Source: a virus. From it: a stretch of DNA of 57,794 nt. Both the position numbers and the translations under genes were made by a program. The notes beneath the pieces are model-generated. The model had not been told where the DNA came from, did not search any database, and was given only the letters and a program-made list of their open reading frames with translations. The stretch's first letter is position 1; the number at the start of each line of letters is the position of its first letter. The stretch spans positions 1-57,794 of IMG/VR virus record IMGVR_UViG_3300036846_000250; one strand, 5' to 3'. Shown here in pieces: positions 31,866 through 38,314 of this stretch.

Positions 31866-32654
31866 ATGCCGAAAGCCAAGACTGTCCGAGCGCCGGACAT
31901 TCCGCACACGAACGGCGACCACGACGTGGAATACTGGTCGCCACAGGACTTGAAACCTTACGACCGGAACTCGAACAAACATCCACCGGAGCAAGTGGCG
32001 CTGATCGCACAATCGATCGAGGAATTCGGATTCACAATTCCGATTCTGGCCGACGAGACCGGAATGATTCTGGCTGGCGCTGGCCGACAACTGGCGGCAA
32101 TCGAACTGGATTTGACCAGCGTGCCGGTGATCGTTAGGCGCGGCCTGTCCGAGGCACAGAAACGCGCCTACGTCATGGCCGACAACCAGATCGCGCGGAC
32201 GAGCGAATTCGATTTCGATATCATCGCCGCCGAACTGAAAGCGTTGGCGCGTGAATATCCGGAGTTCAATCTCGGCGTGATCGGGTTCGCTGCGGCGGAT
32301 GTGCGGAAATTTCTCGACCCGCTTTTTGGCGCACAGCATCCTGACACTGGCAAGCTTTTGGAAGTGCTGCGCGTATCGTTCGACGATCCCAAGCACAGCG
32401 TGAAACATGGCGACGCGTGGGACTGCAACGATCATTGCGTGATGTGCCTCGATCTGTTCACCGAGTGGGAAATCTGGCAACGCGAACTGACAGCCGGAAC
32501 GGTGTTCCTGCCCTACGCTGGTCCTCTGGTGCTGCTCAGCGAACGCGCGAAAACGACTCGGATGCTGATCGTTAATCCGCAGGAATACATTTGCGGAATG
32601 ATTCTCGACAAGTTTGTCGAGGCGAAACTCGGCAAACCGACCAAGCGCAAATGA
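31866..32654 (+). CDS. ParB-like protein with methylase-like remnant
   Basis: 262 residues. Residues 20-120 form a ParB/Srx-like domain: LKPYDRNSNKHPPEQVALIAQSIEEFGF, then ILAGAGRQLAAIEL. The C-terminal part (VKHGDAWDCNDHCVMCLDLF and later PQEYICGMILDKFVEAKLG) resembles the ends of the DNA methylase domain found fused to ParB in phages, but the catalytic DPPY-type motif is missing. It couples by ATGA to the DpdA-like gene, suggesting a partner in site selection; compare DpdB, also ParB-like. Confidence 0.8.
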   Translation: MPKAKTVRAPDIPHTNGDHDVEYWSPQDLKPYDRNSNKHPPEQVALIAQSIEEFGFTIPILADETGMILAGAGRQLAAIELDLTSVPVIVRRGLSEAQKRAYVMADNQIARTSEFDFDIIAAELKALAREYPEFNLGVIGFAAADVRKFLDPLFGAQHPDTGKLLEVLRVSFDDPKHSVKHGDAWDCNDHCVMCLDLFTEWEIWQRELTAGTVFLPYAGPLVLLSERAKTTRMLIVNPQEYICGMILDKFVEAKLGKPTKRK

Positions 32655-33547
32655 TCCACACGGCAGGCAACACATTCGATCCACGCGAGCGCCAGCTTTA
32701 TTTCATCGCCATCAACGCGGACAAACTGCTGCGCGTGGAAAAATTGAATCGCCACTTGCTGGTGGCCGTGAACGAAGTCACAGGCTCAAACGCGCTCGGC
32801 ATCGTCGAGCAATTGTGCGAGCGCGGGACAAAAATCCTGATCGACTCCGGCGTGTTCAATCTTGCGATGCAGCACGCGCGGAAACACGACTGCCACATGA
32901 ACGAGGCGCTGGCGATGCCGCCGGACGAGATCGACGGCTTCCAAGAACTCTACGACAAATACGTGGACCTTTGTTCGACTGTCGGCGTGAAGTCGTGGGG
33001 CTACGTCGAGATCGATCAAGGCGGACGCGAGAACAAAATCAAGACGCGAGCGAAGCTTGAAAAACTGGGGCTGTATCCGATCCCTGTGTATCATCCGTTG
33101 AACGACGGCTGGGACTACTTCGATTATCTGGCTGCGCGATACGACCGGATCTGTTTCGGCAACGTGGTGCAGGCGGAAATCGCCGAGCGAATCCGGCTGA
33201 TCTCGACGGCGTTCCTTCGGCAGCAGAAATATCCAAAGCTCTGGATTCACTTGTTAGGCGTGACGCCGAACGAACTGCTGCATTCCTGTCCGTCGTGTTC
33301 GTGCGACAGTTCGACGTGGCTGTCATCGATGCGGTGGGGCAGCTGTGACGCGACGTGCTTCGGCAAACGCGTCGGCGAGGGCTTCGGCCCTGCGCTGACA
33401 TATCGCTACGGCGCGGCTGCGCTGGATGAGAATCCCGACCGGAACGCGAGCTACATCAAGGGCGAAAAACTTTTTGCATACGACGCGGAAATCATGGGCA
33501 GAAACTGGTCGGACTACTGCAAGCACTACAAGGCTGCGACCACATGA
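32651..33547 (+). CDS. dpdA: DpdA-like DNA guanine transglycosylase
   Basis: 298 residues. Resembles phage DpdA proteins of the tRNA-guanine transglycosylase superfamily: LIDSGVF at 63-69 (compare DSGGF of TGT), GYVEIDQGG at 117-125, PVYHPLNDGWDYFDYLA, RICFGNVVQ, WIHLLGVTP at about 198-206 and a CPSCSCDSSTW cysteine cluster (213-223). The family exchanges guanine in DNA for a 7-deazaguanine base. It sits in a coupled run of five genes and shares the module with FolE, QueD and QueE, which supports the call. Confidence 0.85.
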   Translation: MIHTAGNTFDPRERQLYFIAINADKLLRVEKLNRHLLVAVNEVTGSNALGIVEQLCERGTKILIDSGVFNLAMQHARKHDCHMNEALAMPPDEIDGFQELYDKYVDLCSTVGVKSWGYVEIDQGGRENKIKTRAKLEKLGLYPIPVYHPLNDGWDYFDYLAARYDRICFGNVVQAEIAERIRLISTAFLRQQKYPKLWIHLLGVTPNELLHSCPSCSCDSSTWLSSMRWGSCDATCFGKRVGEGFGPALTYRYGAAALDENPDRNASYIKGEKLFAYDAEIMGRNWSDYCKHYKAATT

Positions 33548-34218
33548 GAAAACAAACGCGCCTCAGCGACGCCGAGCTGCACAAGCGTAATCCGCGCACG
33601 ATTACCGACGAGCAATTGGAGCGGCTGAAAAATGCCATGCGAAAATATGGCGACCTGTCTGGTTTAATTGCGAACCTGACGACCGGCAATTACATCGGCG
33701 GCAATCAGCGCGTCAAAATACTGGGCGACTTGCCAGTGTCGATTGTGCGCCGATACGCTACGCCGACAGCGTGCGGGACTGTGGCGGAAGGCGTGGTCAT
33801 ATACGAGGGCGAACGCTTTACTTATCGGCAAGTCCGCTGGTCTGAACAGCAGGAACTGGCTGCGATGATCGCGGCCAATCAACACGGCGGCGAATGGGAC
33901 ATGCCAGGCTTGGGCGACCTGCTGATGCAGCTGCGTGACGAGAATTACGAAATGCCGTTGCTCGGGTTCGACGCTAAAGAACTCGCCTCGATGCTGGCAG
34001 AATCAAAGAGCGGCAACGGACGGACTGGCGACGAATTGCGAACGGTGCTGCTCAGTTACGACGAAGTTCAATTTCCAATCTTCATGGAACGCGTGCAGTT
34101 GTTAGGCGAACACTATGGCGCGACCAATGTGGCTGACACGGTGCTGCAAGCTGTGAGCGATACCTATGCGCGTAAAGCGGCCGAAATTGCTGACTCAAAA
34201 CAGCGAGCTGAAAGCTGA
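33544..34218 (+). CDS. Second ParB-like protein
   Basis: 224 residues. A degenerate ParB-type domain at the N-terminus: NPRTITDEQLERLKNAMRKYGDLSG, then TTGNYIGGNQRVKIL and later QQELAAMIAANQHGGEWD. The C-terminal half is helical and shares the general plan of phage ParB-like partner proteins. It overlaps the DpdA-like stop by ATGA. With the ParB-like gene on the other side, it brackets the transglycosylase, so the three may act as a complex; inference. Confidence 0.75.
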   Translation: MRKQTRLSDAELHKRNPRTITDEQLERLKNAMRKYGDLSGLIANLTTGNYIGGNQRVKILGDLPVSIVRRYATPTACGTVAEGVVIYEGERFTYRQVRWSEQQELAAMIAANQHGGEWDMPGLGDLLMQLRDENYEMPLLGFDAKELASMLAESKSGNGRTGDELRTVLLSYDEVQFPIFMERVQLLGEHYGATNVADTVLQAVSDTYARKAAEIADSKQRAES

Positions 34219-34867
34219 CGGCGTTTTCAATTGGTCGCTGCCAGCGTGGGCGATCAAGCTGCGCGACGGTCGCAAGTTCAACGTGTGTCCGAACGCTGGC
34301 ATCTGCGCCACGCTGTGCTACGCGCGGAACGGGACGTATATGTTTCCAGAAGTGCGAGCGGCGCATGAACGAAATCTGTTGCTGGTGCTGGATCATCTGG
34401 CGCTGTGGGAAAAATGGCTGACAGCGGAATTGCTCGAGCGGCGCTACCACGGCAAACACATCCGCATCCATGACTCTGGCGACTTTTTCAGCGACGACTA
34501 TTTGCTGGCGTGGCTGCGCGTGATTCGCGTCACACCGTGGGCGACGTTCTACGCTTACACCAAGGAAGTCAGTCGGTTCAAGCGGCTGGTTGAATCCGAT
34601 CCGCCGGCGAATTTCAAATGGATCTATTCGCTTGGCGGTCGCGAGGATCATTTGATCGACCGCGAGAACGACAGACACGCAGACGTATTTCCTGACAGAC
34701 TGTCGGCGGTGCTGGCTGGTTACGTCACGCAACAGGCCAGCGACTTGTTCGCGATTTACAGCGCACGAAAAGTCGGGATCGTGGCAAACAACATTCCACA
34801 ATTTCGCAAGCGGCAGGGCAAACACACGTTCGCCGACTTGCAAAACGAAAGGGCAAAACGCAAATGA
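34166..34867 (+). CDS. Gp88-like cysteine-cluster protein
   Basis: 233 residues overlapping the previous gene by 53 bases. The motif NVCPNAGICATLCYARNGTY places Cys at 41, 47 and 51, characteristic of the phage Gp88 family. Conserved IRIHDSGDFFSDDYLLAW and FYAYTKE segments follow. The function of this family is unknown; a metal or Fe-S cofactor is plausible. Its presence between DpdA and QueD suggests a role in modification chemistry or DNA targeting. Confidence 0.78.
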   Translation: MRVKRPKLLTQNSELKADGVFNWSLPAWAIKLRDGRKFNVCPNAGICATLCYARNGTYMFPEVRAAHERNLLLVLDHLALWEKWLTAELLERRYHGKHIRIHDSGDFFSDDYLLAWLRVIRVTPWATFYAYTKEVSRFKRLVESDPPANFKWIYSLGGREDHLIDRENDRHADVFPDRLSAVLAGYVTQQASDLFAIYSARKVGIVANNIPQFRKRQGKHTFADLQNERAKRK

Positions 34868-35199
34868 CGATATTTATCACCACACGATTTGAAGGCTTTC
34901 ACAGCTGGCCGAACGCGCCGAGCGAAGTGGCGTTCCTGCGCGATCCGCACAGGCACATTTTTCATGTGCGCTGCTGGCGTGAAGTGACACACGACGACCG
35001 CGACGTCGAGTTCATCCTGTGGAAACGCGAAATAGAAAAACAGATCGGACTGCTGGCGGACGCCAACGACACGAAACACTGGTCGTGCGAGCGGTGGGCG
35101 CGAGCGATCGGCGAACGCTGCGGTGCGCACTCGGTCGAAGTTTCCGAGGACGGCGAGAACGGTGCGCTCTGGTCCGACAACGACAGCACGGTTTTATGA
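34864..35199 (+). CDS. T-fold (QueD-like) paralogue
   Basis: 111 residues. Compared with QueD it keeps an early His in EGFHSW (H13), then PHRHIFHV (H29, H31), matching the three-histidine zinc site of the 6-pyruvoyltetrahydropterin synthase fold, and a VEFILWKREI strand-helix like the IVDFGKL of QueD. The QueD catalytic Cys motif is absent. It could act on a 7-deazaguanine precursor, e.g. as a carboxy-deazaguanine decarboxylase; inference. Coupled by ATGA at both ends. Confidence 0.62.
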   Translation: MTIFITTRFEGFHSWPNAPSEVAFLRDPHRHIFHVRCWREVTHDDRDVEFILWKREIEKQIGLLADANDTKHWSCERWARAIGERCGAHSVEVSEDGENGALWSDNDSTVL

Positions 35200-35426
35200 G
35201 AATCGAAATCCACACACGTCCACTGATACTGGCAAAGCTGGCTGGCCAGACCGACTGCGCACAAGAGGTCGACGTCTGGCTGTTCACAGGCGACGAATAC
35301 GACTGCGGCAGCGTGATACTCGAGGCGGTCGTGCCTAGCAAAGCGAAGGCGAACAAGATGATCGACGACTTGGTTGTGGCGTTCGCCAGCGCGGCTGTGA
35401 TCGTGAACGACAATCAGCAGTCATAA
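35196..35426 (+). CDS. Small hypothetical protein of the modification locus
   Basis: 76 residues from an ATGA overlap at 35196. Beta-alpha-like pattern (MRIEIHTRPLILAKL, DVWLFTGDEYDCGSVILEAVVPS, NKMIDDLVVAFASAAVIV). No family was recognised. It ends the first block of the modification genes; a convergent gap follows. Confidence 0.68.
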   Translation: MRIEIHTRPLILAKLAGQTDCAQEVDVWLFTGDEYDCGSVILEAVVPSKAKANKMIDDLVVAFASAAVIVNDNQQS

Positions 35427-35436
35427 AGCGCCTCAG

Positions 35437-35545
35437 GAATGGCGATTGCTCGCGCGAGGATTGCGCGTATCGCGTTTTGTTATGGCGGTGGCTGTGGCGA
35501 CACTGGAATGAAGGCAAAACGATTCTAAAGGGATTCTGGTGCGTT
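35437..35545 (+). repeat. Long inverted-repeat element, copy C
   Basis: GAGGATTGCGC then GTATCGCGTTTT as left arm (35463-35477), a centre with GGTGGCTGTGGCGACACTGG, and right arm AAAACGATTCTA at 35516-35527. Lies in the convergent gap after the first modification block. Confidence 0.8.
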
Positions 35546-35571
35546 CTGCTCAAACGCGCGTAAAAACAAGG

Positions 35572-35594
35572 TATCTGCGTTTGGTGATAAGCTT
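35572..35594 (+). repeat. Stem-loop repeat, copy 10 (truncated left arm)
   Basis: GTATC, loop TGCGTTTGGT and right arm GATAAGCTT. The same truncated form as copies 2 and 11. Confidence 0.82.
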
Positions 35595-35600
35595 CGAGGC

Positions 35601-35638
35601 AAAAAAAAGCGCCGCCGGATTTCTCCGACGGCGCTGCC
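35601..35638 (-). terminator. Rho-independent terminator for the leftward gene
   Basis: On the minus strand a stem GGCAGCGCCGTCGG-type / CCGGCGGCGC followed by eight T, 25 bases after the stop of gene 35663-36196. Confidence 0.85.
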
Positions 35639-35662
35639 TTATGCCTTAACCGACGAACGGTA

Positions 35663-36196
35663 TCAGGCGTCTGCTGCGGCCACAAGTTCTTTCAACGCTT
35701 TTTTGCTGACAGGCGCTGGCGTGCCTCGCAGACCGTGGCGGCCTGCCTGCACGAACGTGCGAATCGCGGCGACGGACGCACGCGGCTCAACGGTGTGAAT
35801 CGCGGCGACGGCTACGGCTGGTTTGAATCCAGCTTTGCCGAACGCGCGAGCGACTGCGACGACCGGATAACCGAGCACAGGCTTCAACGGGCGCTTGCCG
35901 TTCGCCACTTGTTTCTTGGCGGACTTGGCTGCACGCGCGTCGACTTTCTTGGCTTTTTTCATGGTTGCCTCCGTGGTGTTGACCGCCTCCTGCAAGTCGG
36001 CGACGGTGGGTTTGGTTTTGCCAGCGGTTGCTGGCTTTGCGAACACTTGCTCGGCGACTGCTTCGCCGTGTTCGTCTGTGATGATCCGGCGCAGGTTTCC
36101 CTCCGTCGGACGGACTTGGTTTGCTTTGCAGACGTTTTTGGCATCGCGTATCATTTCGGCGATGTCGTTTTTGCTGTAGGTGACTGATGTTTTCAT
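35663..36196 (-). CDS. Lys/Ala-rich putative DNA-binding protein
   Basis: 177 residues from the ATG at 36196 behind AGGGACGGC. The N-terminus (YSKNDIAEMIRDAKNVCKANQ) is helical; the middle is Lys/Ala rich (KKAKKVDARAAKSAKKQVANGKR when read in parts), reminiscent of histone-H1-like tails; the C-terminus repeats PAVAVAAI and VAAIRTF motifs. Isolated leftward gene inside the modification locus. Nucleoid or transcription regulation is possible. Confidence 0.7.
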   Translation of the reverse strand: MKTSVTYSKNDIAEMIRDAKNVCKANQVRPTEGNLRRIITDEHGEAVAEQVFAKPATAGKTKPTVADLQEAVNTTEATMKKAKKVDARAAKSAKKQVANGKRPLKPVLGYPVVAVARAFGKAGFKPAVAVAAIHTVEPRASVAAIRTFVQAGRHGLRGTPAPVSKKALKELVAAADA

Positions 36197-36304
36197 GCCG
36201 TCCCTGTCCATCCGGAAACCAGTTCCGCAACAGTTCAAGCAAACTTTTTTCAAAATATTTTTTGGCGCTGCCTCCGGTGATGCTGCGCAAAAAAAACTTG
36301 CATC

Positions 36305-36769
36305 GTGTTCCCGACCGAAATAGAAGTTCGGGACGTGTTCACCTGCACAAAGACTTATGCCGACCTGCCGTTTGCGCATCGTGCGCCACAGCACGATGGA
36401 CATTGCAAATTGATCCACGGACACAATTGGTCTTTCACGATCACGTTCTGCGCCACATCGCGCGACGCTAACGGCTTCATCGTGGACTTCGGGAAGCTTG
36501 GCGAATTCCGGCAGATGCTGTGGGACATATTCGATCACAAGTTCGTGGTGTCGCAGGACGATCCGCTGCTGCGTGAGATCGGCTGCTTCCTCCGCGACAA
36601 CCAGATTTCCAATCTGACGGTCGTGCCGGATTGCTCGAGCGAAGGCATCGCCGAGTTCGTGTCTGGTCTGGCGGACGCCTACGTCCGGAAACTGACCGAT
36701 GACAGGGCGCGCGTCATCGAAGTGATCGTCCATGAGAGCGCGTCGAATGTGGCGACCTACCGGCCATGA
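36305..36769 (+). CDS. queD: QueD, 6-carboxytetrahydropterin synthase
   Basis: 154 residues from a GTG at 36305. Zinc-binding histidines at 25, 38 and 40 (FAHR ... LIHGHNW), catalytic Cys34 in DGHCKLIHGH, and NGFIVDFGKL are intact. Converts dihydroneopterin triphosphate to 6-carboxytetrahydropterin, the second step towards 7-deazaguanine bases. Coupled by ATGA to queE. The GTG start lacks a strong ribosome binding site. Confidence 0.92.
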   Translation: MFPTEIEVRDVFTCTKTYADLPFAHRAPQHDGHCKLIHGHNWSFTITFCATSRDANGFIVDFGKLGEFRQMLWDIFDHKFVVSQDDPLLREIGCFLRDNQISNLTVVPDCSSEGIAEFVSGLADAYVRKLTDDRARVIEVIVHESASNVATYRP

Positions 36770-37461
36770 TAAAAATCTCTGAAATATTCGGGCCGGTGAT
36801 ACAGGGCGAGGGCGCACACATCGGTGTGCCGACGGTGTTCGTTAGGACTGGCGGCTGCGATTATCGCTGCTCATGGTGCGACACGATGTATGCCGTCGAC
36901 AAAAAGTTCTCAGGCGAGTGGCGAGGGATGTCGAACGACGAAGTCTTGCAGGCGATCTACGCGCGGTCACACCGGCCGATACTCGTTACGCTGTCCGGCG
37001 GCAATCCGGCGCTGTTCGATTTTTCATTCGTGATCGATGAACTGCACGACCAGAAATTTCGCGTGACCATCGAAACACAGGGCAGCGTGCCGCGCGACTG
37101 GTTTGGTCAGCTCGATCACATGACGCTGTCGCCGAAACCGCCCTCGAGCGGAATGCCAACGGATCTGGCGAAGCTGGATACCTGCGTGTCGAAGCTGGAC
37201 CGGACGAAGCAATCACTCAAAATCGTGGTGGCCGACGACGCTGATTACGACTACGCGCGACACATCGCCGACCGATATCCGAACGTGAAATTATACTTGC
37301 AAGTCTGCAATCCTGATCCGGCAGTCGAGGGCGATATCATGGCGATGCTGTTGGACAAATTGCGCTGGCTGTCTGACAAGGTTTTGTCGGACTGCTGGTA
37401 TACCGCGACGGTGCTGCCACAGCTGCATGTTCTCTTATACGGAAATCGGCGTGGAATCTAA
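36766..37461 (+). CDS. queE: QueE, 7-carboxy-7-deazaguanine synthase
   Basis: 231 residues. Radical SAM CX3CX2C motif CDYRCSWCD (Cys31, 35, 38), the [20 protein letters not shown]-terminus typical of QueE, and LSGGNPAL for SAM binding. It forms 7-carboxy-7-deazaguanine from carboxytetrahydropterin. Follows queD, precedes and overlaps folE by 35 bases. A GTTAGGA variant lies at 36841. Confidence 0.94.
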
Positions 37462-38314
37462 ACACACACAATTGTCGTGGGCTGACATTCGCAGTTTGAT
37501 CGCCGACCGGATTCCAAAAGACCTTCTGGTTTACGGCGTGCCGCGCGGCGGCGCGGTCGTGGCTGCGATGCGCGGCCGCAACGTGGACAATGCGCCGGAC
37601 GCCGACGTGATCGTGGACGACATAATCGACAGCGGACGGACGCGCGACAAATTCAAGCACATGTTTCCTGACAAGATGTTCGTCGCGCTGATCGACAAGA
37701 CCGACCAGAGCGATCCGCATCTGCGCGACGGCTGGATTCATTTTCCGTGGGAGCCGCCAGCGGAGACCGACATACAGGAATCGGTGACGCGGATTCTGGA
37801 ATACATCGGCGACCGACCGGAGCGCGAAGGCTTGAAGGAAACTCCTGCGCGTGTCGTCAGGTCGTGGGACGAAATATTCGCTGGCTACAAAATGAAAGTC
37901 GAAGACGTGCTGTGCAAAGAGTTCGAGGCGGACGGCTACGACGAATTGATCATCTGCCGGAACATCGATTTCTACTCGACGTGCGAACATCATCTGCAAC
38001 CGTTCTTCGGACGTGCGCACGTCGGCTACATCCCGAAACGTAAAGTGGTCGGCCTGTCGAAGCTGGCGCGGCTCGTCGATCTGTTCGCGCGTCGGTTGCA
38101 GATACAGGAGCGACTGACAGCTCAGATCGCGGACGCGCTCGAGGAACATCTGCAACCGTTAGGCGTGGCGGTGCTGATCGAGGCGCAACATTTCTGCATG
38201 GTCTGTCGCGGCGTGCGCAAACAAAACTCCTGCATGACGACGAGCAGTCTGAAAGGTTTATTCCGGAGCGCGGAAGCTCGCGCGGAATTTTTCGCTCTGG
38301 TGGCGCGATCATGA
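37427..38314 (+). CDS. folE: Phosphoribosyltransferase-FolE fusion (GTP cyclohydrolase I)
   Basis: 295 residues. Residues 1-108 are a PRPP-dependent phosphoribosyltransferase: [13 protein letters not shown] and the PRPP loop [12 protein letters not shown] (61-72). Residues 112-295 are GTP cyclohydrolase I, with the zinc and active-site motifs CEHH (186-189) and HFCMVCRG (256-262), all present. FolE opens the 7-deazaguanine pathway from GTP; the transferase could recycle guanine released by DpdA to GMP; inference. Start overlaps queE. Confidence 0.92.

Follow-up and report, generated by a model that had tools for sequence, protein, structure and literature searches.

The 57,794-base virus record IMGVR_UViG_3300036846_000250, referred to below as the window, carries contractile-tail genes (terminase, portal, head protease, major head protein, tail sheath and baseplate) and, at 31866-38314, a module of genes that probably serves 7-deazaguanine DNA modification. 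The G+C content is 57% both overall and in the module. An earlier note had described this block as a FolE-QueD-QueE-DpdA locus without QueC, a description borne out by Pfam, PHROG and NCBIfam searches, which placed all of these genes within it. Further members of the operon were found in addition: two ParB-like proteins, a GP88-family protein and a small protein, here called c5, at 34864-35199. FolE, moreover, is fused at its N-terminal side to a PRPP-loop phosphoribosyltransferase (PRT) domain and so makes up the C-terminal part of a larger protein. Neighbouring genes of the module lie on the + strand, mostly with 4-base stop/start overlaps, and a gap of ~1.1 kb separates c5 from QueD. The phage probably swaps an altered guanine into its own DNA as a protection.

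FolE, QueD and QueE together make 7-carboxy-7-deazaguanine (CDG). QueC turns CDG into preQ0 via ADG, and the preQ0, ADG, G+ and preQ1 branches of the pathway all depend on it. A six-frame profile search of the whole record with PF06508 gave zero QueC candidates, in line with what had been claimed for this DNA. The same search was positive in 12 of 14 control genomes, which excludes that a QueC in the window was overlooked. Because no QueC was found, the window was not filed under the preQ0 type; it is a variant of the phage 7-deazaguanine DNA-modification systems that lies outside that type. It has FolE, QueD, QueE and a DpdA of the tRNA-guanine transglycosylase (TGT) fold, all in one cluster, in common with the systems of CAjan, Rosebush, PaMx25 and Dp-1 (Hutinet 2019, PMC6884629), but differs from them in having c5 instead of QueC, and its DpdA is ~23% identical to that of CAjan.

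The c5 gene (34864-35199, + strand) encodes a protein of 111 aa. It belongs to PHROG 17812, a family of unknown function; no match was found in NCBIfam, and in the phage records examined (ACP17, phiST, PA5oct, X1 and others) it is annotated as hypothetical. The AlphaFold model (pLDDT 93.8, pTM 0.85) predicts the T-fold of QueD, and the top PDB match of this model is E. coli QueD (4ntk, 3qna; E 1.6e-5, TM 0.78). When profiles of c5 and of the QueD proteins encoded beside it were compared, they matched over the whole length (E 1.4e-9). Invariant residues of c5 are H13, W15, L25, H29, R30, H31, F33, R46, E49, S74, C75, E76, E95, D96 and E98. Its first histidine and HxH motif (H13, H29, H31) and its late glutamate align with the zinc and substrate residues of QueD; the predicted fold and the zinc histidines are common to c5 and E. 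coli QueD. That c5 might be a spurious open reading frame (ORF) was rejected on the grounds of its confident model, its invariant residues and its presence in 46 of 53 related loci.

The QueD proteins of these loci have C34, H38, D77, H78 and E144 as invariant residues, and the QueD of the window keeps the catalytic Cys34, the zinc-binding H38-G-H, Asp77-His78 and Glu144. In c5, on the other hand, the catalytic Cys and the Asp-His pair are gapped or replaced in the alignment. Because these catalytic residues are missing, c5 was not filed as QueD and, judged from its sequence, it is not one. The operon thus combines a normal QueD, separately encoded, with a QueD-fold protein whose active site has been rebuilt.

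The distribution of c5 and QueC shows that the two exclude each other. Among 53 DpdA loci, the window included, 46 had c5 only, five had QueC only and none had both (Fisher p 9e-6). Clustering of the ORFs of these loci placed DpdA in 53, QueE in 50, a ParB-like protein in 50, QueD in 48, FolE in 48, c5 in 46 and QueC in five; neighbour clusters 6-10, 12 and 13 consisted of antisense ORFs and were left out. The ParB-DpdA-c5-QueD-QueE-FolE set is not a chance grouping, since dozens of viral contigs share it. A DpdA-based sample of 50 contigs held QueC in five, FolE in 44 and QueE in 47, and among its contigs of at least 30 kb (n = 24) QueC was present in one and QueE in all 24. An independent search based on c5 revealed at least 590 viral stretches that encode it. 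None of 50 records chosen for c5 (four of which are complete named phages) had a QueC over the cut-off; QueE was found in 45 of them, three of the 45 being weak matches.

The same picture emerged from a QueE tree of 96 loci, in which 83 had c5 only, 11 QueC only, two neither and none both, although the tree behind these counts was a quick one and the sample had been enriched for c5. Supported branches of the tree force at least six exchanges between c5 and QueC, and in independent pairs the two never move the same way (median p 0.03). Twelve complete phages encode c5 (ACP17, RHph_I1_18, MA9V-3, X1, Roos, phiST, PA5oct, BUCT-ZZ01, Phosso, Bakedbeans, D479 and Ahp1), nine encode QueC and no c5 (phiSM, Dp-1, BSP7, CAjan, PaMx25, ply2008005c, StAshley, M39 and nt-1), and none holds c5 plus a full-length QueC. 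The Cellulophaga phages exemplify this, phiST having c5 and phiSM having QueC and no c5. The replacement of QueC by c5 is well supported.

A scan of 84,980 species genomes revealed the operon in Bradyrhizobium barranii, Amycolatopsis vastitatis, A. anabasis, Pseudonocardia acaciae, Haloactinopolyspora alba and an Oscillatoriales metagenome-assembled genome. No true QueC was found in the genomes of A. vastitatis, A. anabasis, P. acaciae and H. alba, where QueC-like matches covered ~57 residues inside proteins of ~640 aa (E 1e-4 to 1e-5). These four genomes are drafts, yet assembly gaps can hardly account for the lack of QueC in all four. The pathway in these actinobacteria cannot reach preQ0 through QueC. 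B. barranii, with the operon integrated, has QueC, as has Magnetospirillum. In five bacterial contigs, one of them from Magnetospirillum (L144-L147 and L149; L147 is the Magnetospirillum contig), a c5 homologue is followed by QueD ~2 kb further on. In the Magnetospirillum contig a 536-aa TGT-like protein is encoded between the two, and the whole stretch (L147:10100-12542) is possibly a bacterial or prophage DNA-modification cluster.

Two loci, L047 and that of Mycobacterium phage Bipper, have neither c5 nor QueC. Both encode a homologous protein of ~140 aa directly after dpdA (L047, 10951-11370; Bipper gp4, 141 aa), with further homologues in phages Typha, Nadezda, Hilltopfarm and Cracklewink and in three further contigs. 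The absence of QueC from Bipper has been noted before (Hutinet 2019, PMC6884629), and we found no QueC in Bipper, in the contig of L047 or in the three further contigs. The gene order of the Bipper group (ParB-like, DpdA, small protein, QueD, QueE, FolE) is that of the window, but its small protein differs: gp4 has no sequence relation to c5 or QueD, and the possibility that it is a divergent c5 was rejected. The gp4 homologue lies beside DpdA, QueD, QueE and FolE in L187-L189, of which L187 is the contig of L047 itself; L190 has the homologue, with no DpdA, QueD, QueE or FolE in the stretch examined. As L047 and Bipper carry the gp4-type protein, almost all readable loci encode one, and no more than one, of c5, QueC and a gp4-type protein. 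The 5-kb DpdA contig L039, which lacks c5 and all other pathway genes, is uninformative.

The DpdA-like DNA-guanine transglycosylase of the window (298 aa, 32651-33547, + strand) matches PHROG 887, a queuine tRNA-ribosyltransferase family, at 1.9e-18 and has no Pfam match. Its true start is probably the ATG at 32651, which overlaps the stop of the ParB-like gene. The best PDB matches of its AlphaFold model (pLDDT 91) are tRNA-guanine transglycosylases (~2e-5); a PDB profile search using the DpdA alignment gave no match. D66-S-G, E121, D123 and D220-S-S are invariant in 46 relatives, D66, D123 and D220 being the catalytic aspartates. Relatives with 40-88% identity are encoded by 52 IMG/VR loci. 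A tblastn search of 50,697 phage records using the DpdA protein of the window as a query found no match, not even the DpdA of CAjan, which is found at 3.8e-15 by a profile of the window clade.

Directly upstream of dpdA is the gene of a 262-aa ParB-like protein (31866-32654, + strand; PHROG 498, 6e-41; PHROG 620, 1e-38), which is related to phage ParB-methyltransferase proteins in their ParB part. In 46 of the 53 loci the end of a ParB-like gene lies no more than 120 nt from the DpdA domain, and the product of this gene may, speculatively, target DpdA to DNA. The second ParB-like protein (224 aa, 33544-34218, + strand; PHROG 620, 2.8e-25) follows dpdA. The GP88-family protein between dpdA and c5 (233 aa, 34166-34867, + strand; PF17338, 2.9e-53) does not belong to any of the gene clusters shared by at least five relatives. 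A lysine/alanine-rich ORF without a Pfam match occupies the minus strand between c5 and QueD (35666-36220), and a minus-strand ORF family resembling it was seen in six related loci (cluster 28). A megablast search with the first 25 kb of the window gave no match.

QueD, a 6-carboxytetrahydropterin synthase of 154 aa with a GTG start as listed (36305-36769, + strand; Pfam PTPS, 7.8e-22), is followed by QueE, a 7-carboxy-7-deazaguanine synthase of 231 aa (36766-37461, + strand; PHROG, 1.3e-45) that scores 309.7 bits against the NCBIfam QueE equivalog TIGR03365 (cut-off 206). The PRT-FolE fusion ORF spans 37427-38314 on the + strand. Its C-terminal domain (37772-38314) is a GTP cyclohydrolase I (Pfam 5.4e-72; PDB GTP cyclohydrolase I 1.5e-54). 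The N-terminal domain (37427-37765) has a PRPP loop and resembles xanthine/guanine PRTs (PHROG 8995, 2.9e-8), although it stays below the cut-off of 138 for the NCBIfam xanthine PRT (24.3 bits, 1.9e-5) and matches PDB weakly (E 0.015). Judged by motif, 8 of 117 FolE ORFs have the fusion, and in Synechococcus phage BUCT-ZZ01 a xanthine-guanine PRT is encoded on its own next to queE. Both arrangements suggest that guanine released by DpdA may be recycled.

Genes near c5 in other phages offer some side observations. A protein of ~420 aa and unknown function (PHROG 10773) is encoded near c5 in ACP17 (KY979132, 83532-84806) and BUCT-ZZ01 (ON615601, 67260-68510). It may be another type of DpdA, since in Xanthomonas phage X1 the gene just ahead of c5 is annotated as queuine tRNA-ribosyltransferase. 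Furthermore, c5 is present in the Pseudomonas jumbo phages PA5oct (MK797984, 225753-226130), MIJ3, Paride, Cassandra and relatives, and in PA5oct QueE lies ~1.3 kb from c5.

We propose, at a probability of about 0.6, that the module is a 7-deazaguanine system without QueC in which c5 stands in for QueC and has CDG as its substrate, the simplest case being decarboxylation to 7-deazaguanine (DG), which DpdA would insert. GTP would be converted to free CDG by FolE, QueD and QueE, and c5 would take over at the step where QueC would act; because c5 takes the place of QueC, its own step most likely starts from CDG. The simplest reaction would be the decarboxylation of CDG to DG in a zinc-containing, QueD-like pocket, with the new Arg, Asp and Cys residues of c5 placed around the carboxylate. 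Such a cofactor-light reaction would fit a small T-fold protein that has a metal site and lacks a nucleotide-binding domain. DpdA would then exchange guanine in the phage DNA for DG, and the modified base would hide sites from restriction enzymes, while the PRT fused to FolE may return the released guanine to GMP and thence to the GTP that feeds FolE. What the analysis shows is the gene set, the lack of QueC, the predicted fold of c5 and its substitution for QueC; the action of c5 on CDG, its decarboxylase activity, the identity of the inserted base as DG and the salvage of guanine are inferences.

Cui 2023 reportedly described dCDG and dDG in phage DNA and predicted a CDG decarboxylase, DpdL, with the same step and product as those predicted here for c5. 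Possibly c5 is DpdL. The literature searched, which did not include that paper, yielded no statement on phiST or DpdL, no description of the DpdA clade of the window, and no account of the exclusion between c5 and QueC, of the operon in hosts free of QueC or of a second replacement protein of the gp4 type.

Some observations weigh against the proposed scheme. A protein that has lost the QueD catalytic residues could equally well be a decarboxylase, an enzyme for any other new reaction, a binding protein or a regulator, and the family match of the PRT domain is weak. QueC may be present in the host of the window phage, as it is in Bradyrhizobium and Magnetospirillum. Finally, Vibrio phage D479 has, ~100 kb away from c5, an ORF that partly matches the QueC family (OZ195776, 153707-154513; 268 aa, SGIDS loop, Cys-rich end). 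Singleton QueC-family genes may serve another function (Hutinet 2019, PMC6884629).

The earlier note had left two options, a QueC supplied by the host or the insertion by the phage of CDG or a derivative, and of these the CDG branch is the better one. That CDG itself is inserted as dCDG, with c5 in an accessory role, binding CDG or passing it on to DpdA, is nevertheless unlikely. CDG is the last product of the operon enzymes with known function, dCDG has reportedly been found in phage DNA (Cui 2023), and a carrier could make good use of a T-fold pocket with affinity for deazaguanines. However, the metal-binding histidines and the invariant set of acid, cysteine and arginine in c5 are more than a simple carrier needs, and such a carrier need not vanish wherever QueC occurs. 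A derivative is the more likely end product because a dedicated protein, c5, takes the place of QueC. Other T-fold enzymes of the pathway, QueF and QueF-like, are established to do different chemistry on deazaguanines, and c5 might likewise turn CDG into a derivative that keeps the carboxyl carbon, such as an amide or ester. We consider this improbable, as ATP-dependent amidation is not to be expected of a 111-aa T-fold protein that lacks a nucleotide-binding domain, and no amidotransferase is conserved beside c5 in the gene clusters.

A supply of QueC by the host, with insertion of preQ0 or a preQ0 derivative and phage genes that merely boost CDG, has in its favour that QueC is common in bacteria, B. 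barranii among them. It is nonetheless rejected as a general explanation and has only a slender chance of being right for the window, because c5 and QueC are exclusive across more than 100 loci and four operon-bearing actinobacterial genomes are free of QueC. Phages of the same DpdA clade have their own QueC or c5, never both, and the exchange between the two is repeated on the QueE tree. Least probable of all is that the genes raise queuosine in host tRNA and leave the DNA unmodified, a role that has been proposed for phages with pathway genes but no DpdA (Hutinet 2019, PMC6884629). The window does encode a DpdA-like protein, between ParB-like genes, and without QueC the pathway stops short of a queuosine precursor; moreover, mycobacteria, the hosts of the QueC-less Bipper, are reported to lack queuosine genes.

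Beyond the window, we give slightly less than even odds to the wider view that c5 represents an uncharacterised enzyme family that has repeatedly replaced QueC and diverts CDG into 7-deazaguanine DNA, and that the family of Bipper gp4 and L047 has done likewise independently. If so, dDG or dCDG would occur in the DNA of many phages from the environment and also at certain bacterial loci, for instance the c5-TGT-QueD cluster of Magnetospirillum. The missing QueC becomes a testable gene assignment, with one named protein to assay. The substitution of c5 for QueC is common in environmental viruses, and the QueC-free hosts suggest that phages can run the pathway in hosts without QueC. As a marker of phages whose DNA should hold a base of the CDG branch rather than the preQ0 branch, c5 predicts CDG-branch DNA modification in the PA5oct- and Paride-like Pseudomonas jumbo phages, and would make the modification chemistry of hundreds of uncultured viruses predictable from sequence.

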